From NCBI RefSeq assembly GCF_009014635.1, contig NZ_BKCF01000001.1:434001-498000 (forward strand): a DNA stretch of 64,000 nt, in the 5' to 3' direction. A model generated the notes under the pieces. That model did no database searches. It was not told the DNA's origin and saw only the letters and a list, made by a program, of their open reading frames with translations. The translations under genes and the position numbers were made by a program. Source of the stretch: Patiriisocius marinistellae (lineage in GTDB: Bacteria; Bacteroidota; Bacteroidia; Flavobacteriales; Flavobacteriaceae). Positions 217 through 62,868 of this stretch are shown in pieces. The number at the start of each line of letters is the position of its first letter. Within the stretch, counting starts at the first letter, position 1.

Positions 217-3200
217 TGTCTTTCTTAAAATAGGTTTGTACTTTTTGCTTATATTCTTGTCGAAGCGGTAGCGCTTCCCTGTTTAAAATTTCAGTAGTAT
301 TAAAATACTTTTTTATGTCCTCAGGAGACATTCTAATTGTGTTATTAAAATTCAAATTATTTGTTTGAGATTCACGCTTCGTGTCTTGACCTTGTTCAAA
401 GTCTGCTTCTTCTAATTTCAACAATTCATATTGTAAATTTAGCATCTTTTCAAGTGTGCGTTGATTAAAACCTTTATCCAATAATTGTTCTTCAATACCT
501 TCCATTTTTTTTATTAAATCGCCTCCTTTGCCATCAAATCCTTCTTTACTAAGTTTATCTTCTAACTGTTGTCGTAGTTGTTGTTGTTGCTTATAAATCT
601 CAAATAGTTCTCCATCGTTATTTTCACTTTCCCCTTTTCCCTCACCTTCTTTGCCTTGACCATCATTATTTCCATTTCCATTATTTCCATTCTCTCCACC
701 ATTACCATTCCCTTCACCTTCACCTTCACCTTCGCCTTCTCCTTGACCTTCACCTTCACCCTCTCCTTCTTTACCTTCTTTTTCACCTTTCCCCACTCCC
801 TCTTTCATTTTTTCACCTAAGCTTTTTTGTTTTTCAATAATATCTGGAAGTTGGAATCCCTGACCACCTCCTCCTTCACCAGGACTAGGCTTTCCTTTTC
901 CTCCACTACCACTGCCACTAGCATTCATTTGATTTTGCATACTTGTAAGCATATTAGCTAACATATTTGCAAGTTCGTTAGTTCCTGTAACAGTATATTG
1001 CTGGTTGCTTATACCTTGTCTTAACTGGTTTTCTGCAAGGCGTTCCATTGACTTGTCAATATTATATTGAACCTCAGTAAGTGATTCATTAATTTCTTCA
1101 CTTATCATAGGTTGTCTTAATGATAATGAGAACAAACTGTCATCTATGTGTTGAAAATTTTGCTTTAAATCATTTTGAAAATTTAACCGTTTTCCAAACA
1201 CTGGATTTCCGTAATCTGTAATTTTAAAATCTTCCATTAAGTCTTCTTGACGAAAAGAAAATACTACAAGATTATCAAGGATTTGTCGTAACATTTCAAC
1301 ATCTTCTTCCATTTGTTCTTGTTGTCCACCAGACATAGAAGATTGCATTTGCTGTCCCATTTGCTTCATTTTCTTGCCAGCATTTTTTTGACTTTTTTGA
1401 GCTCCTTCTTTATCTCCTTTTTCTAATTTATCTGATGCATTATCCTGCTCTTTGTCAATAATTTCTTCCCCAACTTTATCTTCTGGGATTTCCATGGGTG
1501 CTTTTAAATCATCATTTTCTTTCTTTAGCTTTTCAAGTTCTTCTTTATACTTTTCAAACTTTTCATTAAGTTTTTCTTGTTTTTCTTTTGTGTTTTTTTC
1601 TTTTGGTTCATCAGCTAATTTTTCTTGCTCTTCTCCCAATTTGAATAATTCTTCAGCTAGTTTTTCGGTTTTCTTTTCTACATAATAACGCTTTGTCAGC
1701 TCAAGTAACTGCTCAAGGTTTTTCTCTTGATTTTTATTTTGTTTAGAAACCTTCTCAATTTTTTCGGTAAGTTCTTCTTTAGATAGTTTTTCTTGAAGCT
1801 TTTCTAATTCTTCCAGTAGTTTTTCATTTTCTTCAAGCTTTTTTTGATTCTTTTCTAAGCGTTCTTCTAGTTGTTCTTTAAAAGGGTCTTTCTCTTCATT
1901 TTCTGGTTGAAAATTTTCAAGATTCTCTTTTAATTCTTTTGAGAATTTTTGCATCATTTGCTCTTGTTGCTTTTGACGCTTAATTACATCTTCTAATTTT
2001 TTCTTATCATTCCAATTAAGCTCCTCCTTTTCTTTCTGCAGTTTCTCAATTTCCTCAAGACGCTTGTCTTGCTTTTTCATTTCTTCAAGTGCTTTATCCA
2101 TCCCTTTAATGGCATTTTCTTGATTTTGTAATTGTTCGTTCTGCAATTCGTCTTCAGTCAATTTTCTAAAATTATAAATCGCAGATTTACTAGACTTAAA
2201 ATTATGAATCTGGTCATTATCAAACACCTCAAAAAAGTACTCATATGCAACACCTTGGGTTAAATTTAAATCACCCGGAAATGCATATGTAAACTGATCA
2301 AAATTACTTTTGTTTAAGGGCAAAGTCGCAACTTGTTTTGCCGCCTCATTTCCGTCAGGATAATATACAATTTGTAATTTTGTTAGTCCATAATCATCAC
2401 TCACCTGTCCTAAAAAATAAATCCTTTGACTTTCTAAACTATCCTGCCTAGATTGTACTTCAATTTCAGGATATTCATCTTTAATAACGCCTAGTGTAAA
2501 AGATAAGTTCTCGTAATCTTTTAAATTTTTATTGGACGTTGTAATTGCATAATCAAGCTTAGAATAAATACCCTTAATTAGGTCAAACTGCTGTTTCTCT
2601 TCGGAAAAGAGGTATGTAGTATCTCGCGTTTTTAAAGAAACCTCTGTAGTGTTTTTTGCAGCAACTCTCCAGGTAACTGAAGTTCCTTCTGGTACAGTGG
2701 CATTTCCTGTACTTTTAAGCACCTCATCTTTTCTACCTGTATAGTTCGGGTAATTCAACACCATATCAAAACCCAATAATGAGGGGACTTTTACTACATC
2801 TAAAGTGTATTCTTTAGACGTTACTTTATTTGCTTTAAGTTTAAAATCTACTGGAGTGTTAGGTTGCAAAAAAGTATATTCAAAAATTCCTGGGGCTGTT
2901 TGTTGAAGAAAATAGGTTTCAGTATTGTACACAATACTGGCATTCTCTGGGATTGCCTCACCCTCTGTCCTTACTTGGACTGTAAAGGGTTTATTCTCAA
3001 CAGCATTTAAAGAATTATTAACCACGAAAAAGCTAAATGGAGCAGGTGGCTCATAAGCAGTATCATAATTAACAACACGGTCATAACTACTACTAAAGGT
3101 GTCTTCATTTCCAAAAACACTTATTAAAGCAAAAATCAAAACCGGAATTGCTGCATACTTTAAATACTTAGCATTCTTCTTAAAATTAATTGCACTCTTA

Positions 3201-3897: not shown

Positions 3898-5409
3898 ATG
3901 TCACAAAAAGTAAGAGTACGTTTTGCTCCAAGTCCTACAGGACCTCTTCATATAGGTGGTGTTCGCACTGCTTTATTCAATTATTTATTCGCTAAAAAAC
4001 ACGGTGGTGATTTTATTCTTCGTATTGAAGATACAGATCAAACCCGTTATGTGGAAGGTGCTGAAAATTATATTATGGAAGCTATGAACTGGCTACACAT
4101 TCCGTTTGATGAATCTCCATCAAAAGATGGTGGATATGGGCCTTACAGACAAAGCGAACGTAAAGATCTATATTTAAAATATGCAGACGATTTAATTGCT
4201 TCTGGCAATGCATATTACGCATTTGATACTGCTGATGCACTCAACGAACATCGTGCTAATCACGAAGATCAAGGGAAAACATTTATCTATAATTGGCATA
4301 ATCGTTTAAAGTTAACAAACTCTTTAGCGCTTTCTGTAGAGGAAACTCAAGCAAAAATAAATGCTGGAGAACCTTATGTAATAAGATTTAAAAGTCCGCA
4401 GGGTGAGACTTTACACATGAAAGATATAATACGTGGCGGTATTACAATTGACACCAATGTACTTGATGATAAAGTACTTTTTAAAAGTGATGGTATGCCT
4501 ACCTATCATCTAGCAAATATTGTAGATGACCATTTAATGAAAATTACACATGTTATTCGTGGAGAAGAATGGTTACCATCTATGGCTTTACATGTTTTGT
4601 TGTATAAAGCATTTGGTTGGGATGCGCCACAATTTGCACATTTACCACTTATCTTAAAGCCTGTTGGCAATGGAAAGTTAAGCAAAAGAGATGGAGACAA
4701 GTTTGGTTTTCCAGTATTTCCATTAAATTGGAACACTGCGAATGGAGAGGTTTTTCCAGGTTATAAAGAAGATGGTTATTTACCTGAAGCAGTTGTAAAT
4801 ATGCTAGCATTTTTAGGTTGGAATCCAGGTACTGAGCAAGAGCTTTTTACGCTTGATCAATTGATAAAAGATTTTGATTTGGCACGCGTTAACAAATCTG
4901 GGGCTAAGTTTGATTTTGAGAAAACAAAATGGTTTCAACAACAGTATTTACAAGAAGTTGACGATGAAACATTAGCAATTCAATTTTCAAAATTATTGAA
5001 GGATAAGGGTATCACTACCTCTATTAATATTGTTCCTATTGTAGCTTCTTTAAAGGAAAGAGCAACATTTGTTCAAGATATTTGGGATGAAGGAAGTTTC
5101 TTTTTTGAACGCCCTACTACTTATGATGAAAAAGCAGCTGGAAAAGCGTTTAAAGAAGGCACAGCCGAAATTTTAAGCTCTGTTGCTACAATTATAAATG
5201 GTTTGAACAGTTTTGAAAGTAGTCACATTTCCGAAGCTGTTAAAGGATGGATTACTAGTCAAGAGATGAGTTTTGGAAAGGTTATGATGCCATTGCGACT
5301 TACCCTTGTTGGCGAAATGAAAGGTCCAGATGTTTTTGAAATTGCATCGCTACTTGGTAAAGAAGAAACTATCGCAAGGATTGAGCAGGCAGTAAAATTT
5401 ATAGGATAA
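3898..5409 (+). CDS. gltX: Glutamyl-tRNA synthetase
   Basis: A class I aminoacyl-tRNA synthetase of 503 aa that charges tRNA-Glu with glutamate in the cytoplasm. The ATP-binding signature PSPTGPLHIGG is at residues 11-21 (HIGH-type motif HIGG) and the KMSKS-type loop KLSKRDG is near residue 260; length and N-terminus are normal for the family. The start is fixed by the MSQKVRVRFAPSP N-terminus. Upstream are a good -7 promoter and a hairpin in the leader; downstream is a strong bidirectional terminator. Since glnS lies 5 kb away in the same window, this enzyme is probably discriminating (tRNA-Glu only). Confidence 0.97.
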   Translation: MSQKVRVRFAPSPTGPLHIGGVRTALFNYLFAKKHGGDFILRIEDTDQTRYVEGAENYIMEAMNWLHIPFDESPSKDGGYGPYRQSERKDLYLKYADDLIASGNAYYAFDTADALNEHRANHEDQGKTFIYNWHNRLKLTNSLALSVEETQAKINAGEPYVIRFKSPQGETLHMKDIIRGGITIDTNVLDDKVLFKSDGMPTYHLANIVDDHLMKITHVIRGEEWLPSMALHVLLYKAFGWDAPQFAHLPLILKPVGNGKLSKRDGDKFGFPVFPLNWNTANGEVFPGYKEDGYLPEAVVNMLAFLGWNPGTEQELFTLDQLIKDFDLARVNKSGAKFDFEKTKWFQQQYLQEVDDETLAIQFSKLLKDKGITTSINIVPIVASLKERATFVQDIWDEGSFFFERPTTYDEKAAGKAFKEGTAEILSSVATIINGLNSFESSHISEAVKGWITSQEMSFGKVMMPLRLTLVGEMKGPDVFEIASLLGKEETIARIEQAVKFIG

Positions 5410-10409: not shown

Positions 10410-10444
10410 CTTCGGAAATGTAACTGGCATTAAAATTTCCGAAG
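10410..10444. repeat. Inverted pair of the dispersed CTTCGGAAAT motif
   Basis: CTTCGGAAAT at 10410-10419 and its complement ATTTCCGAAG at 10435-10444 face each other across 15 bases in the leader region of folB. They could form a 10-pair hairpin. The left copy continues as GTAAC, the extended form of the motif. Confidence 0.7.
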
Positions 10445-11080: not shown

Positions 11081-11097
11081 TAGTCACATTTCCGAAG
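11081..11097. repeat. Extended copy of the dispersed motif (17-mer)
   Basis: TAGTCACATTTCCGAAG is identical, over all 17 bases, to a stretch inside gltX at 5220-5236. Here it lies ten bases beyond the stop of the LysE-type gene. Confidence 0.8.
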
Positions 11098-12596: not shown

Positions 12597-14813
12597 TTAT
12601 ACAAATACAAAATCTAAATGTTTTCTTACTAAATCGGCATTTTTAACCTTTACTTGTACTTCATCACCTAAGACATACTTTTTATGTTTACGTTGTCCAA
12701 CAACAGCATATTCCTCTTTGATAAACTCATAATGGTCATCTTGCATATCTTGAATCCTTATCATTCCCTCACACTTATTTTCAATAATTTCTACGTAAAT
12801 TCCCCATTCTGTTACACCACTAATAACGCCTTTAAATTCTTGATCTTTATGGTCTTGCATATATTTAACCTGCATATATTTAATGCTATCACGCTCAGCT
12901 CTTGCTGCAAGTCCTTCCATCTCACTTGAATGTGCACAACGATCTTCGTATTTTTCATTTTTAGCACTTTCTTTACCATCTAAATATCGTTGTAATAAAC
13001 GATGTACCATTACATCTGGGTAACGACGAATAGGCGAAGTAAAATGTGTATAATAATCAAAGGCAAGTCCATAGTGACCTATATTTTGTGTTGTATACAC
13101 TGCCTTGCTCATTGTACGGATAGCAAGTGTGTCAATCATGTTTTGCTCTTTACGACCATTGACATCTTTTAATAATTTATTTAAAGATTGCGCTGTAGAA
13201 TTTCTGTCTTTGGTGTTTAATTTATAACCAAATTGCTTAATAATATTCTCTAACGCTGCAATCCTTTCATCATCTGGCTCATCGTGTACACGATATACAA
13301 ACGTTTTTGATTCTCCTTGTTTATTTTTCTTTTTGCCTATAAATTCAGCAACACTTCTATTTGCTAGAAGCATAAACTCTTCAATCAATTTGTTAGCATC
13401 TCTACTTTCTTTAAAATAAACACCAGTAGGCGTTGCTTCTTCATCAAGTATAAATTTAACCTCTACTTTATCAAAGGATATAGCTCCAGCATTCATCCTT
13501 GCTTTTCTTAAAATCTTAGCAAGTCTATCCATTTCAATAATTGCAGATGCTATAGGAGCATCCACTTTGTAAGCTTTATCTGTTATTGATATGTCTGCCG
13601 AAATGTTAAGATCCAGATTATTATCACTGCTGTTTTTACCTACATTATTATCAATAATCTGTTGCGCTTCCTCATACGCAAAACGAGCGTCTGAGTATGT
13701 AACTGTCCTACCAAACCATCTATTAACAATTTCGGCTTTAGTGTTCATTTCAAATACTGCAGAAAATGTATATTTTTCTTCATGAGGTCTTAAGGAACAA
13801 GCACCGTTTGATAAAATTTCTGGTAACATAGGTACTACTCTATCAACTAAATAAACAGAGGTTGCTCTTTCGTAAGCTTCATCATCAAGCACAGATCCTG
13901 GTTGTAAATAGTGAGATACATCTGCAATATGAATTCCTATTTCGTAGTTTCCGTTTTCTAAAGTTGTAAATGAAAGAGCATCATCAAAATCCTTTGCGTC
14001 TTTAGGATCAATAGTGAAAGTTAAATCCTTGCGCATATCTCGCCGTTTAGCAATTTCCGAAGCATGAATTTTAGTATCTAATGTATTTGCATATTCCTCC
14101 ACCTCTGGGGGAAAATCATATGGCAATCCATACTGAGCTAAAATTGAATGGATCTCTGTATTATGCTCACCAGGCATTCCTAAACTTTTTATAACTGTAC
14201 CGTAAGGAGAATCTGCTTTTTCTGGCCAATCATCCATACGTACAAGTACTTTTTCACCTTGTTTTGCATCGCCTATATTTGCTTTGGGAACAAAAATATC
14301 AGTGTACATTTTATGGTCACTGGTATCAACAAATGCAAAGTTTTCTTTGATGTCTATTGTTCCTACAAATTCGGTTTTATGGCGTTCTATGATTCTTGTT
14401 ACTTCGCCCTCAGTTTTTCCGCCTCTTCGACGTTTAAAAACATAGACTTCTACAATATCATTTTGTAATGCTTTATTAAGATTTTTATTCTTTACCAGAA
14501 TATCATCTTCTAAGTCTTCCACTATGATGTAGCCTTGGCCACGTCCAGCGATATCTACTTTTCCTGTGTAATAATTTTGGTTTGGTGTAATAATATATTT
14601 GCCACGTTCAATTTCTTGAATGGTCTTTTTTACTTGTAATTCTTTTAATTTTTTTATAATTTGGTTGCGGCTATTTGCGTCATCAACGCCCATTTTTGCA
14701 GCAATTTGTTTATGATTTTTAGGGTTTGAATGGTCTTTTCGTAGGACTTCTAATATTTTTTGTTCAAGACCATCTGTATTTTTTTTTCTTTTTTGTTTTG
14801 TTCTTTTCGACAT
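12597..14813 (-). CDS. rnr: Ribonuclease R
   Basis: A processive 3'-5' exoribonuclease of 738 aa from the ATG at 14813. A basic N-terminus and winged-helix region are followed by cold-shock OB domains (about 70-230) and the RNB catalytic domain, with the Asp-rich motif TIDPKDAKDFDDALS. A C-terminal S1 domain (EFKGVISGVTEWGIYVEI) completes it. RNase R degrades structured RNA and takes part in rRNA quality control. Upstream in-frame ATGs at 14828 and 14819 give the alternative N-terminus MRIMNMSK; I prefer MSKRTKQKRKK as the conserved basic start. A small hairpin lies directly 5' of the start. Confidence 0.95.
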   Translation of the reverse strand: MSKRTKQKRKKNTDGLEQKILEVLRKDHSNPKNHKQIAAKMGVDDANSRNQIIKKLKELQVKKTIQEIERGKYIITPNQNYYTGKVDIAGRGQGYIIVEDLEDDILVKNKNLNKALQNDIVEVYVFKRRRGGKTEGEVTRIIERHKTEFVGTIDIKENFAFVDTSDHKMYTDIFVPKANIGDAKQGEKVLVRMDDWPEKADSPYGTVIKSLGMPGEHNTEIHSILAQYGLPYDFPPEVEEYANTLDTKIHASEIAKRRDMRKDLTFTIDPKDAKDFDDALSFTTLENGNYEIGIHIADVSHYLQPGSVLDDEAYERATSVYLVDRVVPMLPEILSNGACSLRPHEEKYTFSAVFEMNTKAEIVNRWFGRTVTYSDARFAYEEAQQIIDNNVGKNSSDNNLDLNISADISITDKAYKVDAPIASAIIEMDRLAKILRKARMNAGAISFDKVEVKFILDEEATPTGVYFKESRDANKLIEEFMLLANRSVAEFIGKKKNKQGESKTFVYRVHDEPDDERIAALENIIKQFGYKLNTKDRNSTAQSLNKLLKDVNGRKEQNMIDTLAIRTMSKAVYTTQNIGHYGLAFDYYTHFTSPIRRYPDVMVHRLLQRYLDGKESAKNEKYEDRCAHSSEMEGLAARAERDSIKYMQVKYMQDHKDQEFKGVISGVTEWGIYVEIIENKCEGMIRIQDMQDDHYEFIKEEYAVVGQRKHKKYVLGDEVQVKVKNADLVRKHLDFVFV

Positions 14814-15268: not shown

Positions 15269-15945
15269 AATATTTCTTCTAAATTAAAAATACTACTCTT
15301 AAAATCTTGTCACTTTTCCGAAGTAAAAATTCCATTTTCAAAGTTATCCCTGTTATCAACAATTATATATATAATACTTTTTTCTTTTTAAAAATTTAAA
15401 ATAAAAATGATGTATATAATGGTATGTTAATATGTAGCATAACTTTATTGAAGAACCGTTGTTTTAAACTTTATAGTTTGTTCTTGATAGGTTATTAACA
15501 AGATATGAATATTATTTTCTTCTGAAATTTAATACATTACACACCTTAGTTAACAATTGTTGATAACGCTAATCCACAACTCATTTTTGATAAATAATTT
15601 TAATTTCAATGTTTGGAACTACAATTATTTGTCTGAAAACTTACCTATAAATTGGATAGTTATATTTAGGAATTCTCAGATAAAAATGGATATGAATTTT
15701 TTGAAACAATTGTGCAAATTTTTCTTTCGATTTCTTCCATGTAGATATTAACATTGTTGTTAGTTAAATGTTAATAGCTACAATTATTCTTTATCCACTA
15801 TCATGCCATTACTTTTTATTGAAATGTAAACCATTCACCCAATAACTATTTTTATCTTTACCAAGATAGAAGTATTAATTAAAACATTACACGTCTTTAG
15901 CCTGTCTTTAAAAAGCGACAAACGAGTAATAGAAATATAATAAAG
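15269..15945. other. Long AT-rich non-coding region with DnaA-box-like words (candidate oriC)
   Basis: This is the only gap over 300 bases in the window. It holds TTATCCCTG (15344), TTATCAACA (15353), TTATTAACA (15492), TTATCAACA on the minus strand (15558-15566), TAATCCACA (15570) and TTATCCACT (15791). These are one- or two-mismatch relatives of the DnaA box TTATCCACA. A very AT-rich stretch (about 15361-15430) could serve as an unwinding element, and one extended CTTCGGAAA motif is at 15309-15323. I see no credible gene; the short frames inside show no protein-like composition. No exact DnaA consensus box is present, so the origin call is tentative. Confidence 0.4.
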
Positions 15946-18601: not shown

Positions 18602-19423
18602 TTAAAGTGTTTTACTTTTCACATTTTTATTAAATGGAATTCCTAACTGAACTAGAATATTTTCATCATCTGTATGATCTGCAATGTCAACTCCATAGGT
18701 TATGTTATTAATATTTCCGTAGACAAAAGTTCCGAAGAGTCTATCCCATATTGAAAACATATTTCCATAATTACTATCTGTCCATGGTAGTTGATTATGG
18801 TGATGAAATTTATGCATGTTAGGAGTTACAATAACGTAGCTCAAGGCTTTATCTAGTTTGAGTGGAAGTTTGATATTTGCATGAGTAAAATATGTAAATG
18901 CAACGCTTAAAATGCGGTAGAACAAATAGAATGAAATAGGCATTCCCATAATAATAACCGCTACAAGTGCAAAAGTTTCACGAATAATAAAATCGAACGG
19001 ATGATGTCTGGTTCCTGTTGTTGCATCCACATGTTTATCGCTGTGGTGTACAATATGAAGTCGCCACATAGCAGGTACTTTATGCAATAAATAGTGAACG
19101 CCGTACTGCGCAATTATATCTAAAACTAGAATAGATAATAATAACTCAACCCAAATAGGAGCCTTAATTAAATAGAGTAATCCAAAGCGCTCAGCACCCA
19201 ACCAAGTGAAAACTCCTAAGGTTACAATACCAAAAACAGCATTAATTATCATTACAAAAAAGAGGAGGATAAAATTAGCTTTACCATGACGCCATTTTTT
19301 ATAGGGTTTTGTTGAAAGAGAATAATATCCTTCTAAAATCCAAAAAACAGCTAATACAAAAAACACCCATCCAGCTTTTAACCAAATAGGCATTGTTTCA
19401 AAAAAGTTTAGAAAAGTTTCCAT
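18602..19423 (-). CDS. Sterol desaturase / fatty-acid hydroxylase family membrane protein
   Basis: A 273-aa protein with several membrane helices and the di-iron histidine clusters of the FA-hydroxylase family: HYLLHKV, HIVHHSD, THANIKL and HKFHHHNQ. Family members insert oxygen into lipid tails or sterol-like substrates at the membrane; the substrate here is not evident. It is the last gene of a minus-strand run after the S41 protease and the HNH-type gene, 3 bases after the latter. Confidence 0.88.
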   Translation of the reverse strand: METFLNFFETMPIWLKAGWVFFVLAVFWILEGYYSLSTKPYKKWRHGKANFILLFFVMIINAVFGIVTLGVFTWLGAERFGLLYLIKAPIWVELLLSILVLDIIAQYGVHYLLHKVPAMWRLHIVHHSDKHVDATTGTRHHPFDFIIRETFALVAVIIMGMPISFYLFYRILSVAFTYFTHANIKLPLKLDKALSYVIVTPNMHKFHHHNQLPWTDSNYGNMFSIWDRLFGTFVYGNINNITYGVDIADHTDDENILVQLGIPFNKNVKSKTL

Positions 19424-21710: not shown

Positions 21711-21725
21711 CTTCGGAAACGTAAC
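21711..21725. repeat. Extended copy of the dispersed motif (CTTCGGAAACGTAAC)
   Basis: An intergenic copy between rnpA and the S41 gene. A degenerate second half (CTTCAGAAG) lies about 15 bases downstream, an arrangement similar to the pair at 10410-10444. Confidence 0.7.
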
Positions 21726-21871: not shown

Positions 21872-22237
21872 TTAAGTACTGCTAAGGTTTAGCTTTTTTA
21901 ATACAAAAACCATAGCTTTTTGTACTTTTTTAAACTCAAATTCATCCTTACCTAGATAGATAAATAAAAGAACAAACTTCTTGCCGTTAATTTCAAGGTA
22001 TTCAGTTTTATTCAAACGATAGGCTTCTCGTAATAGGCGTTTTATACGATTTCTAGAAACGGCTTTTTTAAAATTCTTTTTTGGCACTGCGAAAGTTACT
22101 TTTGTAACATCAGCTTCATCAGCAGGCAAATAGAGCACCTTTATTGGAAATTTTGAGTACGATTTTCCTTCAGCAAACAATTGCGAAATTACCTTGCGGG
22201 ATTTTAATTTTTCTTGCTTCGGAAATTTAAAACTCAT
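21872..22237 (-). CDS. rnpA: Ribonuclease P protein component
   Basis: About 121 aa from the ATG at 22237 (MSFKFPKQEKLKSRKVI). The RnpA core signature is seen in FAVPKKNFKKAVSRNRIKRLLREAYRLNK, with the basic RNR motif that binds the RNA subunit and pre-tRNA leader. It is the protein cofactor of RNase P in tRNA 5' maturation. A longer frame starts at 22267, but the family N-terminus and a near-consensus -7 element (TATCTTTA in gene orientation, 22242-22249) favour the shorter form. No rpmH lies next to it, as is usual in Bacteroidota. Confidence 0.92.
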   Translation of the reverse strand: MSFKFPKQEKLKSRKVISQLFAEGKSYSKFPIKVLYLPADEADVTKVTFAVPKKNFKKAVSRNRIKRLLREAYRLNKTEYLEINGKKFVLLFIYLGKDEFEFKKVQKAMVFVLKKLNLSST

Positions 22238-22407: not shown

Positions 22408-24231
22408 CTATTCCTCACCCCAACTATTGTTTTCTGCGTTGATGTCTGCCATTGTTTTTGAAGCATCAATCATCATTGATTTTACCTTTTTAGTACTTGG
22501 TATATTCAACTCATACGTTGGATAAGCCCACGCCCAGTCTTTTGCCACAGTGCGTTTTTGTCCATTATAAGGATTAGCTTTTTCACCACGCATCATTTGC
22601 AATGGGATGTAAAATTGTTCTTGTGTACCATCTGTATACGTTACATCAAGGTCAATAGGCATCCCCATTAATCCAATGCGCTCTAGTGTTACAACTGTAG
22701 CATCTTTTCTAGTTTCTACACTTTTAATACCGTAATCAATAGTGTTTGTCGTTTGCATAAAATCCATCAAGTACCAGTCTAATTCTAGACCGCTTACTTT
22801 TTCTGCAACACGAATAAAATCGTTTGGAGTTGGGTGTTTAAAAGCCCAGTCTTCAAAGTATTTTTTTAATGTTTTGTCTAGATTTTCTTTTCCAATCACA
22901 TAACCTAATTGAGAAAGAAAAACAGCACCTTTTGCATAAGCTATAATACTATACGTTCGGTTTGCTGCATATCTATCCGCATGTGTAGTTGCAGGCTGCT
23001 CTTTACCACTTGTTGCTAAAAACTGATACCCGCGGTAAGAACCAGCGTGTACATTAGGGTTGTTTTCATTATTAATATAATTCATAGCTTCTGAACTTAT
23101 ATACGAAGTAAATCCTTCATCCATCCACTCATGCTTTCCTTCGTTTGTTGCTAATAAAAACTGAAACCATGTGTGTGCAAGCTCGTGTGCTGTAACACCC
23201 ATAAGACTACCAAATTTTCTATTACCAGTAATTAATGTAGCCATCGCATATTCCATACCGCCATCTCCACCTTGAATAACAGAATATTGTTTGTAAGGAT
23301 ATTGACCTACGTGCTCATTAAAATAGGCAAGCATCTCAGCGGTTTTAGGCTGAAGGTTTTTCCAATTTTCTTTTATTTCATCATTATCTTTATAATAAAA
23401 ATTTAATGTCACTCCATTATCAGCCATATACTGGTCGTGGATATAATCTTTATCTGCAGCCCAAGTAAAATCATGTACATTAGGTGCTACAAAATTCCAA
23501 GAGCGTTTTCCTTTTTTAGCTTTTTTAACCTCTTTGTATTCTTTTGAGTCTTTTACATTTTCTGCACTATAACCAGTTGCAGCTACTGTATAATCTTTGT
23601 CAATAGTAATTGTTACATCAAAATCTCCCCATGGACTGTGAAATTCACGTCCTATGTATGGGTCTGCGTGCCATCCTTGAAAATCATATTCTGCTAATTT
23701 AGGATACCATTGCGACATTGAAAATTTAACCCCTTCTGCATTGTCCCTACCACTACGACGCACTTGTAAAGGTACTTGTGCATCCCATTCCATTTTAAAA
23801 GTAGTTTTTGCACCTGGTTGTATAGGTGTGTTGAGTTTTACTTCAAGTACAGTACCTGCAAGTTCATATTGCAAAGGCTTCCCGTCTTGTGTAAGCATCG
23901 TAGGCTTTATGTAGCCTATTTCGTCTGGATTTAACTTAGAAATACGATCTCCCACTCTCCCATCTGGATCTTCAATTGATAAAGAACGTGCGTCCATTTC
24001 ACTTTCTGGTTGAAAGGCGTTAAAATAAAGGTGGTAAAATACGCGATCAAGAACATCAGGTGAATTATTGGTGTACACTAATGTTTGCTCACCTTTGTAT
24101 TGATTGGCGTCTGCATTCACATCAATATTCATGGTGTAATCTACATGTTGTTGCCAATAATTAGTATTGTTTTGAGCCATCACATTTCCGAAGAAAAGAA
24201 GGGCTACGGAAATTTTAAAAATTGATTTCAT
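22408..24231 (-). CDS. Secreted M1-family zinc aminopeptidase-like protein
   Basis: About 607 aa from the ATG at 24231 (MKSIFKISVALLFFGNVMAQ, a clear signal peptide). The zinc site is HELAHTWFQ with the distal Glu in EWMDEGFTSY, and the substrate-recognition motif appears as GGDGGMEYA in place of the classical GAMEN. It is a periplasmic or outer-membrane M1 peptidase as common in Bacteroidota; substrate preference is not deducible. A terminator separates it from the S8 peptidase gene upstream, so the two are probably separate transcripts. An in-frame ATG six codons upstream is less likely. Confidence 0.93.
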   Translation of the reverse strand: MKSIFKISVALLFFGNVMAQNNTNYWQQHVDYTMNIDVNADANQYKGEQTLVYTNNSPDVLDRVFYHLYFNAFQPESEMDARSLSIEDPDGRVGDRISKLNPDEIGYIKPTMLTQDGKPLQYELAGTVLEVKLNTPIQPGAKTTFKMEWDAQVPLQVRRSGRDNAEGVKFSMSQWYPKLAEYDFQGWHADPYIGREFHSPWGDFDVTITIDKDYTVAATGYSAENVKDSKEYKEVKKAKKGKRSWNFVAPNVHDFTWAADKDYIHDQYMADNGVTLNFYYKDNDEIKENWKNLQPKTAEMLAYFNEHVGQYPYKQYSVIQGGDGGMEYAMATLITGNRKFGSLMGVTAHELAHTWFQFLLATNEGKHEWMDEGFTSYISSEAMNYINNENNPNVHAGSYRGYQFLATSGKEQPATTHADRYAANRTYSIIAYAKGAVFLSQLGYVIGKENLDKTLKKYFEDWAFKHPTPNDFIRVAEKVSGLELDWYLMDFMQTTNTIDYGIKSVETRKDATVVTLERIGLMGMPIDLDVTYTDGTQEQFYIPLQMMRGEKANPYNGQKRTVAKDWAWAYPTYELNIPSTKKVKSMMIDASKTMADINAENNSWGEE

Positions 24232-24257
24232 AGTCGTTTGATTATACATTAAAAAAA

Positions 24258-24285
24258 GCTGCTTACTTCCGAAGAAAAAAGCAGC
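24258..24285 (-). terminator. Terminator of the S8 peptidase gene, with the dispersed motif in its loop
   Basis: GCTGCTT (24258-24264) pairs with AAGCAGC (24279-24285). The A-run at 24251-24257 gives the U-tract on the minus-strand transcript. The 14-base loop contains TTCCGAAG. Confidence 0.8.
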
Positions 24286-40485: not shown

Positions 40486-41598
40486 ATGAAAAACACATTA
40501 CTTTTTTTAAAAATTGCATTTAGTCTAGCAATCTTTAGCTTTGTCTCTTGTGGAGATGATGAGGGTGAAATGACAGCTGTTATTGAAGATCCACCTCCAG
40601 TTTCTACTGTTGTGCTTGACCCTAATCAACCTCCATCTCAAAAACTCTCAGATTATAAATTTTTCAAAGGTGAGTTAAAAAATCAAGAACCGGCATACAG
40701 CGTAATTCCTTATGAGCCTATAAGTGCATTATTTTCAGACTATGCATTAAAAAAAAGATTTGTATGGATGCCTAATGGTCAAAAAGCTACCTATATAAAC
40801 GCTTCGGAAATTTTAAATTTCCCCATAGGTACAGCGTTGATTAAAAACTTTTACTATAATAACGTACAACCTAATAATACTACCTTTATTCTAGAAACAA
40901 GAGTGATGATTAAGAAGGAAGAAGGTTGGATTTTTGCAGAATATATTTGGAATGATGAACAAACCGAAGCTTTTTTAAATCAAACTGGCGATGGTGTATT
41001 TAAGGAAATTACATGGATTCAAAATGGAACCCCAATAACATTAAATTATAATATGCCTGCGGAGAGTCAATGTTTTACGTGTCATAAACTTGATAACAAC
41101 AAAGTGCTTTTAGGATTAGAGCCTAAAAGTTTAAATTTTGACTATACATATGAAGATGGAACACAAAACCAATTACAAAAATTAATTGATTTTGGTTATT
41201 TAGAAGACAACCTGCCAGGAACAATTGAAACAATGGTTGATTGGGAAGATACATCTCAACCATTAGAAATACGAGTACGGTCTTATATAGACATGAATTG
41301 CGCAAGCTGCCATATTGAAGGAGGCCAAGCAGGTTATAGAGGTATTCGTTTAGCATATGGAGACACTACAAATCCAGAAAATTTTGGTATTTGTGAAGAT
41401 CCAGACACGCCAATTCCTGTTTTATTTGACAAAAAAATTATTGAGCCAGGAAACGCAGAAGAATCGATCTTATATTATAGAATGTCTGTTTCACAAGAGC
41501 AATATAGAATGCCCCAACAAGGGCGTCAAATTGCTCATGAACAAGCTTTAAGAATGATTGCTGAATGGATAAACTCCCTCCCAGGAACATGTGATTAA
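40486..41598 (+). CDS. SO2930-family di-haem c-type cytochrome lipoprotein (copy 2)
   Basis: A 370-aa protein, closely similar to copy 1 over its whole length (for example PYEPISALFSDYALKKRFVWMPNG against PYQPISSLFSDYAHKKRFLWMPHG). The lipid-anchor Cys is at 22. Haem sites are CFTCH near residue 196 and CASCH near 272, and the late Met is in EQYRMPQQGRQ. Divergence between copies is large enough to argue for an old duplication. It lies 26 bases before the VCBS/T9SS gene, so these are probably co-transcribed. Confidence 0.82.
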   Translation: MKNTLLFLKIAFSLAIFSFVSCGDDEGEMTAVIEDPPPVSTVVLDPNQPPSQKLSDYKFFKGELKNQEPAYSVIPYEPISALFSDYALKKRFVWMPNGQKATYINASEILNFPIGTALIKNFYYNNVQPNNTTFILETRVMIKKEEGWIFAEYIWNDEQTEAFLNQTGDGVFKEITWIQNGTPITLNYNMPAESQCFTCHKLDNNKVLLGLEPKSLNFDYTYEDGTQNQLQKLIDFGYLEDNLPGTIETMVDWEDTSQPLEIRVRSYIDMNCASCHIEGGQAGYRGIRLAYGDTTNPENFGICEDPDTPIPVLFDKKIIEPGNAEESILYYRMSVSQEQYRMPQQGRQIAHEQALRMIAEWINSLPGTCD

Positions 41599-46033: not shown

Positions 46034-46984
46034 ATGCTAAAAGTCAATATTGATTCTTTCAAATATCAAGCTACTCCTAACAAAGTAATTTTAGAAGACA
46101 TTTCGTTTTCAATAAATAAAGGCGAACATCTTGTGCTTCTTGGTGAAAGTGGCTGTGGTAAATCAACACTACTGCACCTTATTTATGGATTAGAGTCTTT
46201 AAAGAATTCAGAAATTTCATGGAGTGGAAAAACATTATTGGGACCCTCATTTTCTTTAATTCCTGGCGAGCCATTTATGAAACTAGTCTCACAGCAATTT
46301 GATTTGATGCCGTTTATTTCTGTGGCCGAAAATATTGCATCTCACCTTAATAGAAGAGACAAAGAAAGCGATAACAAACGCGTTGATGAATTGCTTAACG
46401 TTGTTGATTTAAGTGACTTTAAAGCTACAAAAGCTAAACACCTAAGTGGAGGTCAAAAACAGCGTGTAGCTATTGCAAAGGCACTCGCAAAAGCACCGGA
46501 GGTATTGTTATTAGATGAGCCATTTAGCAATATTGATAATTTTCTTAAAAATAAATTACGCCGTAATCTATTCGCATATTTAAAAGAAAAAAACATTACG
46601 TGTATTACTGCTACACACGATAGTGAAGAAGCGCTTTCATTTGCAGACACCGTTCTTGTTTTAAAAGACGGAAAGAAAGAGTGCTTCGGAAATCCAACAG
46701 AAATTTATAATTCGTTATCAAACAAATATGTTGCTGGGTTCTTTGGAGATGTTTCGGAAATTGAAGGAACATTTTTTAAAAATACCACATCTAAAACCGA
46801 AGTATTATTACCACATCAACTTAAAATTTCAGAAGAGAAAACAGCAATTGAAGTTGAAATAATAAACACTGAATTTAAAGGAAGTTATTATTTAATAATT
46901 TCAAAATTTAATAAAAAGGTCATTTATTTCCAACATTTTAAATCGCTTAAAACGGGTATTAAAGTTTATTTAAAAAAGGTGTAA
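46034..46984 (+). CDS. ABC transporter ATP-binding protein without neighbouring permease
   Basis: A 316-aa protein. Walker A is GESGCGKST (about residues 35-43), the signature is LSGGQKQR, Walker B is EVLLLDEPFSN, and the switch His is in TATHDSEEAL. A C-terminal region (about 225-316) resembles a TOBE-type regulatory domain, as in the iron/sulphate/polyamine importer ATPases. No permease or binding-protein gene lies nearby; the next gene, overlapping by one base, is a four-helix membrane protein of unknown family. The substrate is unknown. Confidence 0.88.
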   Translation: MLKVNIDSFKYQATPNKVILEDISFSINKGEHLVLLGESGCGKSTLLHLIYGLESLKNSEISWSGKTLLGPSFSLIPGEPFMKLVSQQFDLMPFISVAENIASHLNRRDKESDNKRVDELLNVVDLSDFKATKAKHLSGGQKQRVAIAKALAKAPEVLLLDEPFSNIDNFLKNKLRRNLFAYLKEKNITCITATHDSEEALSFADTVLVLKDGKKECFGNPTEIYNSLSNKYVAGFFGDVSEIEGTFFKNTTSKTEVLLPHQLKISEEKTAIEVEIINTEFKGSYYLIISKFNKKVIYFQHFKSLKTGIKVYLKKV

Positions 46985-48472: not shown

Positions 48473-49606
48473 TCAAATAGTATCATCTTGTATGGCTAAT
48501 GCAGCTAATTTTTTCCCAATAGAACTTCCTATTGTAACACCCATCCCTCCTAAACGTACACCACAAAAAACATGTGGAGCCACTTTTTTTAAAACAGGCT
48601 GTTTATGATCACCCACACCCATAATACCACTCCATCGATGGTCAATTTCAACCATTTTATTGGGCAATATAGTTTCCCTTAAAATAGTCTCAAGTTTATT
48701 TTGTATTAAAGGGGTTAGACCCATATAAGTGGTTTCTTCGGTTTTAAAATCTAGGTTACGTCCACCGCCAAAAAGAATACGATCGTCAATATTTCTAAAA
48801 TAAAAGTAACCCTCTTCAAAGTGAAAAGTGCCTTTAATTTTTAAATCCTTGATGGGCTTTGTAATCAACACTTGCGCTCGTGCAGGTTGTACATCTTCTT
48901 TTAAAAACTGTTTTGCAAACCCATTTGTAGCAATGCATACATGCTGAGGTTTTATTTCTTCGGAAATATTAAGGGTGAGCACTATTTTTTCGTTTTCACT
49001 TTTGAGTGAGGTAATTTCTGCATTATTTAAAATTAAAATCCCAGCTTCAGAAACCTTTTTTAGTAACCCTTGCATCATTTTCCCCGTATCTATTTGACCT
49101 TCAAATTGATTAAAAATAACTTTTGAGTTTATTTTTTTAAAACCAAAAGGGTTATCTTTAAGAGAAAACACATCGCCTTTAAATATGGGAAATAGTAATT
49201 TATTTATATATGCCATCTTTGAAATACATTTTTCAAATAGTGACATTTCGGTTTCCGAAAAAAGTTCATATCCGCCCAGTTGTTGATAATCTAGTGTTGC
49301 ATCTCCTAAGGTTTCTCTTAATTGTTTGAGCCCATCAACACGTTGTTTTATAAGTTGAATAACTTGAGCTTCAGAATGCGTGTTAAGGTCTGCAAGAATT
49401 TCAGAAAGACTTCCAAAACATGCAAAGCCAGCATTTTTTGTGCTAGCGCCACTTGGTAACATTCCCTTTTCAAAAATTACTATTTTAGCGTTTGGTTTTA
49501 ATTTGCGAAGTTCTAATGCACAATTTAAACCTACGATTCCACTACCAATAACAGCATAGTCAATGTTGTCTAACCATATTTTTCTTTCCCAGTAACTAAG
49601 TTCCAT
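48473..49606 (-). CDS. FAD-dependent oxidoreductase, DAO (glycine/D-amino-acid oxidase) family
   Basis: A 377-aa protein. The N-terminal FAD-binding motif is YAVIGSGIVGLNCALELRKL with the Glu-ending strand IVIFEKG, followed by GASTKNAGFACFGS. C-terminal parts (FGGGRNLDFKTEETTYMG; HRWSGIMGVGDHKQP; GVRLGGMGVTIGSSIGKKLA) match the DAO family. It is cytosolic; the amine or amino-acid substrate is not known. The start at 49606 follows a motif-rich 240-base gap that contains a possible broken small gene. Confidence 0.88.
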   Translation of the reverse strand: MELSYWERKIWLDNIDYAVIGSGIVGLNCALELRKLKPNAKIVIFEKGMLPSGASTKNAGFACFGSLSEILADLNTHSEAQVIQLIKQRVDGLKQLRETLGDATLDYQQLGGYELFSETEMSLFEKCISKMAYINKLLFPIFKGDVFSLKDNPFGFKKINSKVIFNQFEGQIDTGKMMQGLLKKVSEAGILILNNAEITSLKSENEKIVLTLNISEEIKPQHVCIATNGFAKQFLKEDVQPARAQVLITKPIKDLKIKGTFHFEEGYFYFRNIDDRILFGGGRNLDFKTEETTYMGLTPLIQNKLETILRETILPNKMVEIDHRWSGIMGVGDHKQPVLKKVAPHVFCGVRLGGMGVTIGSSIGKKLAALAIQDDTI

Positions 49607-49617: not shown

Positions 49618-49625
49618 TTCCGAAG
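49618..49625. repeat. Intergenic copy of the dispersed motif (TTCCGAAG)
   Basis: It lies 12 bases upstream of the FAD oxidoreductase start, in the context AAAATTTCCGAAG. Confidence 0.7.
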
Positions 49626-49783: not shown

Positions 49784-49791
49784 TTCCGAAG
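49784..49791. repeat. Intergenic copy of the dispersed motif (TTCCGAAG)
   Basis: It lies directly upstream of the interrupted small reading frame and 6 bases from the accC terminator, itself a near-inverted pair of the same word. Confidence 0.7.
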
Positions 49792-49796: not shown

Positions 49797-49830
49797 AAAA
49801 ATCCGAAGTTTTAAAAAGCTTCGGATTTTT
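49797..49830 (-). terminator. Terminator of accC built from an inverted pair of the dispersed motif core
   Basis: AAAAATCCGAAG pairs with CTTCGGATTTTT, 12 pairs around a 10-base loop. The stem contains TCCGAAG and CTTCGGA, seven of the eight bases of the dispersed motif on each side. It ends 19 bases from the accC stop. Confidence 0.88.
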
Positions 49831-53805: not shown

Positions 53806-54867
53806 TCAATTCTTTTTTACATACCCTCTTTTCTTAGTTATTTTCATGGGGTTTTGTGATATTTTTTTATACTCTTTACGCTTTTTAAAAATCTCTATTC
53901 CATTAAAAATGGCAGCTCTAAAAGAGCTAAAGTCTGCGGTGTTTTTACCAGCAATATCAAAAGCGGTTCCATGATCTGGCGATGTACGCACTTTGTCAAG
54001 TCCAGCTGTATAATTAACGCCTGAACCAAAGGCAAGTGTTTTAAATGGAATTAAGCCTTGGTCATGATACGATGCGATAATTACATCAAAATTTTTGTAA
54101 TTTCCAGAACCAAAAAAGCTATCAGCGGCATAAGGACCAAAAATTGTTTTACCGTTATTACGCAAGTTGTCTAATGTTGGCCTAAGTACTGTATCATCTT
54201 CATTACCAATTACACCATTGTCTCCTGTATGTGGATTAATACCTAAAACCGCAATTCTAGGTTTCTCGGTTCCAAAATCTTGAATAAGTGATTTGTGAAT
54301 TGTATTTATTTTCTTTTCAATAAGTTCTCTAGTAATGGCTGCCGAAACATCTTTGACAGCAACATGATCTGTCAATAACCCTACTCTTAATGTTTCAGAA
54401 ATCATCAACATTAAACTGTCGCCCTCTAATTCTTGGTTCAAATAATCTGTATGTCCTGGAAACCTAAACGTTTCGCTTTGTATGCAGGATTTATTTATTG
54501 GTGCCGTGACTAAGATATCAATCTGGTGTGTTTTTAAAGCATTAACAGCGTTAGTCAATGATTTTATAGCATATTCTCCAGCTTTAAAGTCTTCTTTTCC
54601 GAAGTTAATATCAACTTGTTCTTTCCATACATTGAGTACATTTATTTTCTTCGGAATTATTTTATCAAGATTATCGATGCCGTGGAAATTAATATTCATT
54701 CCAAAGTGTTTTTTGTAAAATGACATTAACTTAACTGAAGCAAAAATTACAGGTGTGCAAAACTCGAGCATGCGAACATCGTCAAATGTTTTTAGGATGA
54801 TTTCACTACCAATACCATTTAAATCTCCAATTGAAATTCCTACAATTATTTTATCCTGTTTGCTCAT
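53806..54867 (-). CDS. pdxA: 4-hydroxythreonine-4-phosphate dehydrogenase
   Basis: About 353 aa from the ATG at 54867 (MSKQDKIIVGISIGDLNGIGSEIILKTF, the conserved PdxA N-terminus). Metal- and substrate-binding parts are seen in FPGHTDYL (metal His), INPHTGDNGVIGNEDDTV and SYHDQGLIPFK. It oxidises 4-phosphohydroxy-threonine in the DXP-dependent route to pyridoxal phosphate. A 13-codon upstream extension is rejected because the -7 element at 54904 lies close to it. It is divergent from ribE. Confidence 0.95.
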   Translation of the reverse strand: MSKQDKIIVGISIGDLNGIGSEIILKTFDDVRMLEFCTPVIFASVKLMSFYKKHFGMNINFHGIDNLDKIIPKKINVLNVWKEQVDINFGKEDFKAGEYAIKSLTNAVNALKTHQIDILVTAPINKSCIQSETFRFPGHTDYLNQELEGDSLMLMISETLRVGLLTDHVAVKDVSAAITRELIEKKINTIHKSLIQDFGTEKPRIAVLGINPHTGDNGVIGNEDDTVLRPTLDNLRNNGKTIFGPYAADSFFGSGNYKNFDVIIASYHDQGLIPFKTLAFGSGVNYTAGLDKVRTSPDHGTAFDIAGKNTADFSSFRAAIFNGIEIFKKRKEYKKISQNPMKITKKRGYVKKN

Positions 54868-56520: not shown

Positions 56521-56528
56521 TTCCGAAG
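56521..56528. repeat. Intergenic copy of the dispersed motif upstream of mce
   Basis: TTCCGAAG in the context AAAATTTCCGAAGC, in the leader region of the epimerase gene. Confidence 0.7.
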
Positions 56529-56635: not shown

Positions 56636-57031
56636 ATGATTGAAAGTAATAGACAGAAAAAAATTGCCGGAGTACTCCAAGAGGACTTGGCAAACGTATT
56701 GCAAAATAGACTGAGAGAAGCGGGACAGAGCGGTATTTTAATATCAGTTAGCAAGGTAAGTGTGACGACAGATTTGTCAATTGCAAAGGTGTATGTAAGT
56801 ATTTTTCCTTCTAAAAATGCTTCGGAAATTACTGCAGAATTAAACAAAATTAAACCACAGATAAAACACGAAGTTGCTCAATTAACAAAACATCAATTGC
56901 GCCGCATGCCCGAACTTACATTTTACAATGATGACTCTTTAGATTATATTGAGAAGATTGAAGATGCCGTTAAGGGTGAAGAAAACCCTATTTCTAATCC
57001 AGATTTATTACCTAAAAGAAGGAAGTCATAA
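56636..57031 (+). CDS. rbfA: Ribosome-binding factor A
   Basis: A 131-aa protein with the KH-type RbfA pattern: IESNRQKKIAGVLQEDLANVLQNR at the start, VSKVSVTTDLSIAKVYVSIF in the core, and the late HQLRRMPELTFYNDDSLDYIEKIE. It binds the 30S precursor in 16S rRNA maturation and cold adaptation. It lies one base upstream of the permease gene, as usual in flavobacteria (rbfA-lolE-like). Confidence 0.95.
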   Translation: MIESNRQKKIAGVLQEDLANVLQNRLREAGQSGILISVSKVSVTTDLSIAKVYVSIFPSKNASEITAELNKIKPQIKHEVAQLTKHQLRRMPELTFYNDDSLDYIEKIEDAVKGEENPISNPDLLPKRRKS

Positions 57032-60236: not shown

Positions 60237-60242
60237 CACATT

Positions 60243-60441: not shown

Positions 60442-62868
60442 TTAATTGAGGCGGTCCCCCTCATTAGTTGTTTTCCTTTTGTCATTGTCACGAAGGCGTG
60501 CATTACCAAAGTTATATTTGAAACCCACTCTAAACAATCGAGATTCATCCTGAGCAAAATAACTATTATCTTGATTGTAGTACCTAGAGCTTAATGGTAC
60601 ATTTTTGGTTTTAAAAATATCATCAACGCCTACAGTTATGCTTGCTCGTTTGCTCCAAAGGCTTTTTCTTAATGAAGCCGAAAGGCTAAATTGATTTTTA
60701 TAATCATAAGATCCGTAAATAAAATTTGAAATGTAGAATGCAGTGATATCACTTGTAATCCCTGCAACTTCAGATATTGTTAACCCGCTGTACATCTCAC
60801 CATAAAATCCGAAAGTATCATTTGAGTAAGTTTCCTGACTACTTTGTTCTGCAAAAAATTCGTTTTCTAAATAAAAACTAGATGTGACAAGTTGTAAATA
60901 CCACCAGGAAAGTATGGGTTTTGCATAAACGATATCAAAACTATATTGAAAATCTTTAATTAAGTTAACATCTTGGTTTTGAAGCACTCGTGTTTGGTTG
61001 TTTTGAAATATTAATTCACCTAAAGGGTTTTTTGTTTCCCAATAATAAGCTTCAAAAAACCAAGTATTTTTATATGTATAACTCATTGTGTACTTTGAAT
61101 CAATGGCGGGAACAAGATTAGGGTTTCCATCACTAAAGTTATTTTCATTGATAAAGTATCTAAAAGGATTTAAGCTTTCATATCGTGGTCTAGAAATACT
61201 GCGCGCATAACTTATACCATATGTAGCGTCTTTATCTGGAGAATGTTCTATGGAAAGACTTGGAAAAAGCTCAAAATAATTTTGTGTATTCACATCACCT
61301 AATTTTCTTGAAATTCCTGTAACATCTGTTTGTTCACCTCTTAAACCAATATTTAAAGCCCATTTGTCCCAGTCTTTAGCAAAGCTAAAATATGCCGCAT
61401 AAATAGACTCCTCATATAAAAAACCATCTGAAAGTAATGGGTTTATTTGAGAGGCATCACCATTAGTATCAAAAAAATCAAGACTGCTATCTGTGTTAAT
61501 ATTACTATACTTAACACCAGTTTCTATAGTGCCAGAAAGTACTGGAATATTAAAATCTAGTTGCAACGTGGCAATATCACTAGATTGAGTAGCATCTGTG
61601 TAAAAATTATTATCTTTAATAAAGCTCCCGTCTGCTAGAAAGAAATTTGTTTCTACATGCTGTAATTTGTCAATATCATATAATATATAATTTGCATTCA
61701 TCATTACATTTGCGCCAGCTTCACTTAATTTCCATGTATGGTTTAAATTAAATGACAGGTTTGAGGTATCATGATTTGAATTACTTGCAGTAGTATAAAT
61801 TGAGTCTAATTGTCTTAATGTATTAAAGTCTTTTGAAATAGCATTATTTTGATATTCTATATCTGGTGAAATAAATAGTCCAATATTGATCCCCACATCA
61901 TGTTTATCATTCACTTTTGCATCTGCAACAATATTTGCTTGATGAGCTTGGGAGCGAGTAGTACGATTAAAATCTGATTGCCTTGTTGAATGCGTTGTAA
62001 TTGCTGAGGGAGAATTAAAAAAACGAATATTATTAACATCTTCTTTAAATTCTTTGCGAGGACTAAAAGTATAACTGCCAAATAGATTTAACCAGTTGTT
62101 TTTGTAAAAATGAGATGTCCCTAATCGATATTTTGCAAAAACGCCTTGTTCGTATGTACCGTTAACAGCACCTTTATAGCCTATTGAAACTGCACGCGAA
62201 GTTTTAATGTCAACGACAATGCCAGCCTCAGCATCATACTTTGCTCCAGGACTAGTAATAACTTCTACGGCTTTAATAGCAGAAGCATCTGTGCTCTGGA
62301 GTAAAGAATTTATTTCGCTCGTTGAAAGATACACACGCTTGCCATTTATATAAATAACAGGTGTTTTTCCTTTCACCGAAATTCCAGTTTCGCTCACAAG
62401 AACGCCAGGCGTTTTTTGCAAAATATCAAGCGTGCTTCCAGTTGCGATAGATGTATTTTCAACATTGAAAATTAATTTTCCGGGCTCTTTTTTAATCGTT
62501 GGTCTTTTAGCAACGACCACTGTTTCATCAAGTGTTTCAATGCTTTCTTTTAATCTTATACTACCAAGGTCTTCATTTGCAGAAAGTTCAATTATTTGAG
62601 AAGTTGTGGTGTATCCTAAAAAGCTTATTTGAACAGTGTATCTCTTCGGAAATAAACCTTCGATTATAAAGTTTCCAGAGTCATCAGTAATTGTATTTGC
62701 TACAAGTACGGTTTCAAGATCTTCGGAGTCTTCCGCATTGTTTTCTAATATAGATATTGTGGCAAATGAGATAGCATTATTTGCCTCGTCGGTAATGTTT
62801 CCGTTAATTGAAAATTCTTGTGCGTAACTAAAAGCAGTAAAGAAGAAAAAAAAAATTAATTTATTCAT
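60442..62868 (-). CDS. TonB-dependent outer-membrane receptor (OMP_b-brl_3 type)
   Basis: About 808 aa from the ATG at 62868 (MNKLIFFFFFTAFSYAQ, a signal peptide). A carboxypeptidase-regulatory-like domain (about 20-100) is followed by a plug with GSTLDILQKTPGVLVSETGISVKGKTPVIYINGK, and the barrel ends in FRVGFKYNFG plus a short basic tail. It belongs to the outer-membrane beta-barrel family of Bacteroidota, not the SusC group. No SusD or regulator lies nearby; the ligand is unknown. It is divergent from lepA. Confidence 0.88.
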   Translation of the reverse strand: MNKLIFFFFFTAFSYAQEFSINGNITDEANNAISFATISILENNAEDSEDLETVLVANTITDDSGNFIIEGLFPKRYTVQISFLGYTTTSQIIELSANEDLGSIRLKESIETLDETVVVAKRPTIKKEPGKLIFNVENTSIATGSTLDILQKTPGVLVSETGISVKGKTPVIYINGKRVYLSTSEINSLLQSTDASAIKAVEVITSPGAKYDAEAGIVVDIKTSRAVSIGYKGAVNGTYEQGVFAKYRLGTSHFYKNNWLNLFGSYTFSPRKEFKEDVNNIRFFNSPSAITTHSTRQSDFNRTTRSQAHQANIVADAKVNDKHDVGINIGLFISPDIEYQNNAISKDFNTLRQLDSIYTTASNSNHDTSNLSFNLNHTWKLSEAGANVMMNANYILYDIDKLQHVETNFFLADGSFIKDNNFYTDATQSSDIATLQLDFNIPVLSGTIETGVKYSNINTDSSLDFFDTNGDASQINPLLSDGFLYEESIYAAYFSFAKDWDKWALNIGLRGEQTDVTGISRKLGDVNTQNYFELFPSLSIEHSPDKDATYGISYARSISRPRYESLNPFRYFINENNFSDGNPNLVPAIDSKYTMSYTYKNTWFFEAYYWETKNPLGELIFQNNQTRVLQNQDVNLIKDFQYSFDIVYAKPILSWWYLQLVTSSFYLENEFFAEQSSQETYSNDTFGFYGEMYSGLTISEVAGITSDITAFYISNFIYGSYDYKNQFSLSASLRKSLWSKRASITVGVDDIFKTKNVPLSSRYYNQDNSYFAQDESRLFRVGFKYNFGNARLRDNDKRKTTNEGDRLN

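Follow-up and report, generated by a model that had tools for sequence, protein, structure and literature searches.

The 64,000-nucleotide stretch of Patiriisocius marinistellae DNA analysed here (positions 434,001 to 498,000 of contig NZ_BKCF01000001.1, hereafter the window) carries numerous copies of an eight-base word, CTTCGGAA, which is examined below as a candidate DNA uptake sequence. The window belongs to a genome of 3.34 Mb in 30 contigs, G000; among named records, its accC gene is closest (89-90% identity) to those of Flavobacteriaceae, for example Aquimarina and Olleya. A first-pass annotation had listed 27 copies on the two strands, called them strongly over-represented, and pointed to a resemblance to uptake sequences or Chi-like recombination sites. 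All 27 copies are exact.

Copies of the word in the window and in the genome

Ten of the 27 copies lie between genes by simple gene calls, non-coding DNA being 12.7% of the window; the intergenic enrichment noted earlier stands, with ten copies in place of nine. Two of them, at 10410..10417 (+) and 10437..10444 (-), form the left and right arms of an inverted pair in the region between the divergent glnS and the gene at 10501, and score 21.8 and 21.3 bits, respectively, with the position weight matrix used for all copies. Others are found at 11090..11097 (-; 21.6 bits), 15316..15323 (-; 18.9 bits) and 21711..21718 (+; 20.0 bits), while the copy at 24267..24274 (-; 14.2 bits) occupies the loop of a terminator-like hairpin. 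The copy at 49618..49625 (-; 21.0 bits) is located upstream of the open reading frame (ORF) 48473-49606(-), and that at 49784..49791 (-; 19.8 bits) right past the terminator-like hairpin following accC (49797..49830, -), whose ATCCGAAG/CTTCGGAT stem itself holds the 7-base core CTTCGGA; the span of this hairpin is the one given in the first-pass annotation, and the sequence agrees with it. The remaining two are at 56521..56528 (-; 19.7 bits), upstream of ORF 56087-56509(-), and at 56820..56827 (+; 15.3 bits), the latter intergenic by the simple calls or else inside a small ORF, 56636-57031(+). The inverted pair, the hairpin loop and the core within the accC stem are thus all present as first described.

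Within genes, the word is found in ORF 209-3619(-) (2599..2606, +; 12.3 bits), in gltX at 3898-5409(+) (5229..5236, -; 18.9 bits), in the RNase R gene (14055..14062, -; 15.9 bits) and in ORF 18602-19423(-) (18730..18737, -; 8.9 bits). It lies at the 5' end of ORF 21872-22237(-) (22217..22224, +; 21.6 bits) and near the start of ORF 22408-24249(-) (24186..24193, -; 21.5 bits), where the aligned word is retained in the congeners G007 and G006; the copy in ORF 25985-26872(-) (26341..26348, +; 19.2 bits) is retained in G007. Further downstream, copies are carried by ORF 30108-31004(+) (30721..30728, +; 17.5 bits), ORF 33988-34341(-) (34005..34012, -; 14.0 bits), ORF 34352-35155(-) (34799..34806, +; 16.4 bits), ORF 35966-37075(+) (36529..36536, -; 18.5 bits), ORF 40486-41598(+) (40802..40809, +; 18.6 bits), ORF 46034-46984(+) (46684..46691, +; 15.5 bits) and ORF 48473-49606(-) (48958..48965, +; 22.2 bits). 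ORF 53806-54867(-) contains both a copy at 54597..54604 (-; 12.1 bits) and its inverted partner at 54649..54656 (+; 14.2 bits), and the last copy is in ORF 60442-62868(-) (62644..62651, +; 15.8 bits).

CTTCGGAA is the top 8-mer of the window, where about one copy would be expected (0.96 by an order-2 Markov model; mean 1.18 in shuffled sequence, with none of 100 shuffles reaching 27). Extension to CTTCGGAAAT, said earlier to hold for most copies, is present in 17 of the 27. The excess persists across the genome, with 1010 copies (518 + 492 by strand) compared to 118 (58 + 60) for the reversed word, which served as the enrichment control. In the coding part of 464 kb there are 106 copies vs 7.3 expected from the proteins and their codon usage, a 14.5-fold excess, and the reversed word is at 1.3-fold. 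In 778 kb of one contig, 106 of 269 copies are intergenic, in 11.7% of the DNA, vs 1.3 expected (83-fold). The earlier remark that the word often creates Ser-Glu fits the main reading frames; codon use as an explanation of the excess does not survive these counts.

Anatomy, symmetry and turnover of the motif

The graded motif of which CTTCGGAA forms the core reads T..TT.YTTCNGAAATnTnA and is followed, from +22 to +27, by a tract of A/T. Expectation-maximization (EM) from three seeds on 464 kb of G000 gave the same model of 426 sites and 16.5 bits, with T at -6, -3 and -2, then CTTCGGAAAT, tolerant mainly at its first and fifth bases, and T11, A13 and A22. The flanks in G000 are T-rich from -9 to -2 and run from A22 to T27 on the other side, and the logos are almost flat beyond about -19 to +27. 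A22, A24 and T27 survive the removal of sites with an inverted partner (174 of 269 sites left), and the variants TTTCTGAAAT and, in G007, TAGCCGAAAT have the same flank frame. A wider form, CNGAAATNTNA, is observed 214 times vs 29.5 expected in G000, 199 vs 36.0 in G007 and 39 vs 4.2 in G006, and 76 times vs 61.1 in 43 pooled accC loci, most of them from Flavobacteriaceae. In G008 and G010, small congeners with few exact words, it reaches 42 vs 7.7 (5.5-fold), possibly a dialect shift inside the genus. EM on G006 gave a broad form of 11 bits; for G007, for the low congeners and for the pooled 43 loci, the model moved off to low-complexity repeats, and those runs were not used. A UUCG hairpin (TTTC-TTCG-GAAA) was also considered as a description of the element and rejected, the pairing base at -1 being T in only about 40%.

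The motif shows no strand bias in the 778 kb, which include a stretch of negative GC skew (141 forward and 128 reverse copies, p 0.46). In 400 kb, copies run with and against genes equally often (45/45), and those in genes fall in several reading frames. Genic copies number 163 of 269, and neither divergent nor convergent intergenic regions are favoured. The spacing is a little more even than random, with a coefficient of variation (CV) of 0.91 that is equally low in 6% of random draws. Pairs no more than 60 bp apart number 18 vs 5.5 expected, and 15 of the 18 are inverted, as in CTTCGGAAATTTTAA-4 nt-TTAAAATTTCCGAAG. A segregation site of the KOPS (FtsK-orienting polar sequence) or matS type was tried and rejected, as the copies have no polarity and lie evenly along the 778 kb.

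Few motif sites are at conserved places among congeners, so turnover is fast. When orthologous positions were compared by blastn, as the first-pass annotation had suggested, in alignments reaching little past the window, 12 sites were aligned in each of G007, G006 and G008 and 11 in G010, of which 2, 1, 0 and 0, respectively, retained the word.

Relatives, competence genes and the excess

The word was counted in a sample of 397 genomes of the family, which appears to be Flavobacteriaceae since some of them have the same word counts as named members. Enrichment, defined as a word-to-control ratio of at least 2 with at least 100 copies, is seen in 44 and not in the other 353; the maximum is found in G304 (2678/245). 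Forward and reverse counts are near equal in the 44 enriched genomes, the biggest imbalance being 220/173 (G236). In the window's genus, G000, G005, G006, G007 and G009 are rich and six small genomes are not. When 20-40 kb were sampled from each of 11 rich genomes of other genera, CTTCGGAA ranked in the top seven words of 8 and a TTCAGAA form ranked there in 8, with neither so ranked in G078. Of 43 named genomes, covering part of 80 accC loci, two pass the same threshold, Chryseobacterium sp. Marseille-Q5410 (L050; 268/79) and Algoriella xinjiangensis (L078; 156/55), and the other 41 do not; with these two, the motif may extend outside the family of the window.

No clear dialect of another kind emerged from nine low-motif genomes at 40 kb each. 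In the CTTCGGAA-poor genome G101 (L228-L229), TCCGCCA/TGGCGGA has 14 copies vs 0.9 expected in 40 kb, which could be another dialect or a coding repeat. Words containing TGCCGA are in excess in 17-21 kb of Tenacibaculum finnmarkense (L019) and Capnocytophaga sputigena (L032), with 13 observed and 1.24 expected for ATCGGCA/TGCCGAT and 11 and 0.82 for CTGCCGA. It is also noted that in G392 the reversed control word is nearly absent (5 copies; CTTCGGAA 174).

A contrast is offered by g50, a related genus distinct from that of the window, with seven species whose genomes are 99-100% complete. The word/control counts are 897/192 in G472, 516/219 in G282, 474/268 in G474, 349/213 in G473 and 238/161 in G471 (ratios 4.7, 2.4, 1.8, 1.6 and 1.5), vs 227/257 (0.88) in G420 and 91/209 (0.44) in G063. 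The five higher-ratio species have a stop-free comEC, although its open frame in G473 (565 amino acids, aa) is shorter than in the others (668-677 aa). The comEC of G420 is broken into diverged pieces with a stop, 26-65% identical to G282, whereas nine of ten other aligned neighbours are 75-92% identical and the tenth, a POT transporter gene, 34-45%; no comEC match was found in G063. A gene with a strong DUF5689 match, located 0.86 Mb from comEC in G282, is present in the same five species and missing from exactly G420 and G063, G420 having just a distant paralogue of 1367 aa. In a tree of RNase R, G420 groups with G474 (support 85/96) and G063 stands alone on a long branch, which makes two separate losses in g50 likely. 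In an underpowered 20-kb comparison, G282 has 6 copies and G420 has 2, with 12 in 40 kb of G472; motif sites are mostly unshared between G472 and G282 too. Where G282 has one POT-family transporter gene, G420 has, beside its broken comEC, two adjacent genes (L164:5005-8057) similar to it, each far diverged from the G282 gene.

comEC is also present in G000. Away from it lies a gene of 916 aa, whose CarbopepD_reg_2 match falls short of the Pfam cut-off, directly followed by a 472-aa DUF5689 gene; their products would be an outer-membrane barrel and a lipoprotein, respectively. Transformation of R. anatipestifer requires ComEC, DprA, ComF, RecA, an HhH protein and a DUF1343 protein, together with the predicted outer-membrane protein RS04915 and the DUF5689 protein RS04920, according to PMC8459023; the G000 pair is arranged like the last two of these essential genes. 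The same paper reports pilus homologues to be absent in R. anatipestifer and R. columbina, and a preference for self-DNA is described for R. columbina in PMC7965970. Searched against PDB sequences, the DUF5689 protein had weak matches only (best E 0.0026).

A stop-free comEC was found in 37 of 37 motif-rich genomes in a hand-picked set of 80. In 80 genomes searched for it, DUF5689 (E <1e-20) occurs in 57 of the 58 genomes with a stop-free comEC match (G010 partial) and in 6 of the 22 without, many of the latter being small or incomplete; this co-occurrence ties the two genes together. In the family survey, none of 35 genomes without comEC is enriched, compared to 44 of 362 with it (Fisher p 0.013), a count that is confounded since most of the comEC-less assemblies are small and partly incomplete.

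A proposed uptake sequence and its alternatives

We propose, with a probability of roughly 0.7, that the graded motif is an uptake sequence, i.e. a self-DNA tag like the DNA uptake sequence (DUS) and the uptake signal sequence (USS), of a naturally competent flavobacterium. The combination of excess, symmetry, anatomy, turnover and gene contrast is best fitted by this explanation, short of proof, and the likeness seen by the first-pass annotation is supported by the A/T tract, the balanced strands, the inverted pairs, the fast turnover and the lack of excess in two g50 species. Mechanistically, the competence machinery would have a surface receptor that binds YTTCNGAAAT together with a preceding T-tract and an A/T tract some two helical turns past the motif start; tagged DNA would then pass an outer-membrane protein, enter through ComEC as a single strand and be recombined into the chromosome. 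Because tagged alleles would enter and recombine more often, the tag would build up by molecular drive at many places where it has no local function, most easily between genes, on both strands and with fast turnover, and it would decay upon loss of competence. We infer that the organism is competent and that the motif is bound at uptake; as a hypothesis, the DUF5689 protein would be the receptor.

Uptake sequences are established in Neisseriaceae and Pasteurellaceae. The Pasteurellaceae Hin-USS (AAGTGCGGT with AT-rich regions) resembles the present motif in its short core, its hundreds to thousands of copies, its downstream AT tract and its close complementary copies; the AT-rich regions lie downstream, about two helical turns off (PMC12616744), and complementary copies are closely spaced (PMC1852404). 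The present motif differs in its unrelated core and phylum, in having a T-tract also before the core, in not favouring convergent (terminator) regions and in having only a candidate receptor. The Neisseriaceae DUS dialects (GCCGTCTGAA family, with ComP as receptor) are likewise variants around a small common core, strongly over-represented and in part arranged as dyad-symmetric pairs (PMC3630211). In contrast, the core here is TTCNGAA, the flanks are discontinuous and most relatives lack an excess. With Riemerella transformation, G000 shares ComEC and the adjacent pair of CarbopepD_reg-like and DUF5689 genes; within the available portion of PMC7965970, no uptake sequence was identified there, and a raw k-mer count gave nearly pure A/T words. 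In the literature searched, no uptake sequence was found reported for Bacteroidota, and that paper, the nearest one, left the question open in its accessible part.

Several observations weigh against an uptake sequence. The organism is not known as competent, and its competence is supposed. F. johnsoniae has homologues of the Riemerella genes, yet was not transformed under Riemerella conditions, according to PMC8459023. All 20 low-motif comEC-bearing genomes tested keep ComEC and DUF5689, so the machinery is insufficient for a motif excess, and G323, rich in the motif and carrying comEC, lacks a PF18942 (DUF5689) match. The g50 contrast is post hoc, G063 and G420 having first been picked as low relatives of G282 and the other four species added later; it consists of two species, with a chance of 1/21 that two given species are the lowest of seven, and three of the comEC-bearing species are only modest in ratio (1.5-1.8). 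The densest genome, G304, has no intergenic enrichment (27 of 288 copies in 10% of the DNA) and no CNGAAATNTNA excess (29 vs 33.2 expected), and favours a more palindromic form, CTTCNGAAG, with different flanks. The rich genome G078 gave only 3 copies in its 40-kb sample. The one-mismatch halo is partial, 308 vs 194-229 expected and mainly at core positions 3, 5 and 7, with variants below expectation at some core positions. Of the 106 intergenic copies, 12 lie in convergent regions, vs 18.5 expected by length; the terminator link drawn earlier is accordingly weak, as the individual hairpins exist but these regions are not favoured. A terminator role of uptake-sequence pairs is common, not universal.

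Among the alternatives, a site for a global protein that binds DNA or organises the chromosome, with no role in uptake, would account for the partly palindromic, graded TTCNGAA core and for the intergenic enrichment in G000. It is nevertheless improbable, considering the 163 genic copies, the lack of preference for divergent or convergent regions, the mostly unconserved positions in congeners and the 353 family genomes without excess; nor does it predict that the motif is absent alongside the loss of comEC and DUF5689. More doubtful still is a recombination hotspot of the Chi kind, recognised by a helicase-nuclease of AddAB type. Like Chi sites (AddAB/RecBCD), the word is short and frequent over the whole genome, and G000 encodes a 907-aa PF12705 protein that is AddB-like by length and family and that we take to be AddB. 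However, the strands are balanced in the 778 kb with its negative-GC-skew stretch (the origin and terminus positions are not located), the flank pattern includes a tract at +22, and inverted pairs occur. All 17 genomes tested have a PF12705 match, 16 of them with an open frame of 907-951 aa, and G420 and G063 are among those that retain the protein, despite having no excess. On these grounds, the Chi likeness seen by the first-pass annotation is not supported.

A mobile short repeat or hairpin element, of the kind of repetitive extragenic palindromes or miniature inverted-repeat transposable elements with the inverted pair as its unit, is very unlikely: inverted pairs such as the one quoted above do exist, but only 18 close pairs occur among 269 copies, no longer flanks are shared outside about -19 to +27, and genic copies occur in several frames. 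Least credible is that the word arises as a side effect of codon choice, of Ser-Glu dipeptide usage or of RNA signals, for example UUCG hairpins. The core does yield TCN-GAA and CTTCGG could form a UUCG loop, but the 14.5-fold excess left after proteins and codon usage, the 83-fold excess in non-coding DNA and the equal sense and antisense counts largely refute it, and with it the suggestion that codon bias alone could be a simple explanation.

If the motif is an uptake sequence, it would predict which flavobacteria swap genes by transformation and would offer a ready-made substrate with which to study DNA binding by these bacteria. It is put forward more tentatively, at slightly less than even chances, that Bacteroidota have an independently evolved uptake-sequence system with its own dialects, USS-like flanks and a pilus-independent receptor made of a DUF5689 surface protein and an outer-membrane barrel. 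A separate origin in this phylum, with machinery lacking a known pilus, would mean that self-DNA tagging evolves repeatedly.

Apart from the motif, the window encodes a subtilisin-like protease at 24312-25976(-), with a mycosin-type match under the curated cut-off.

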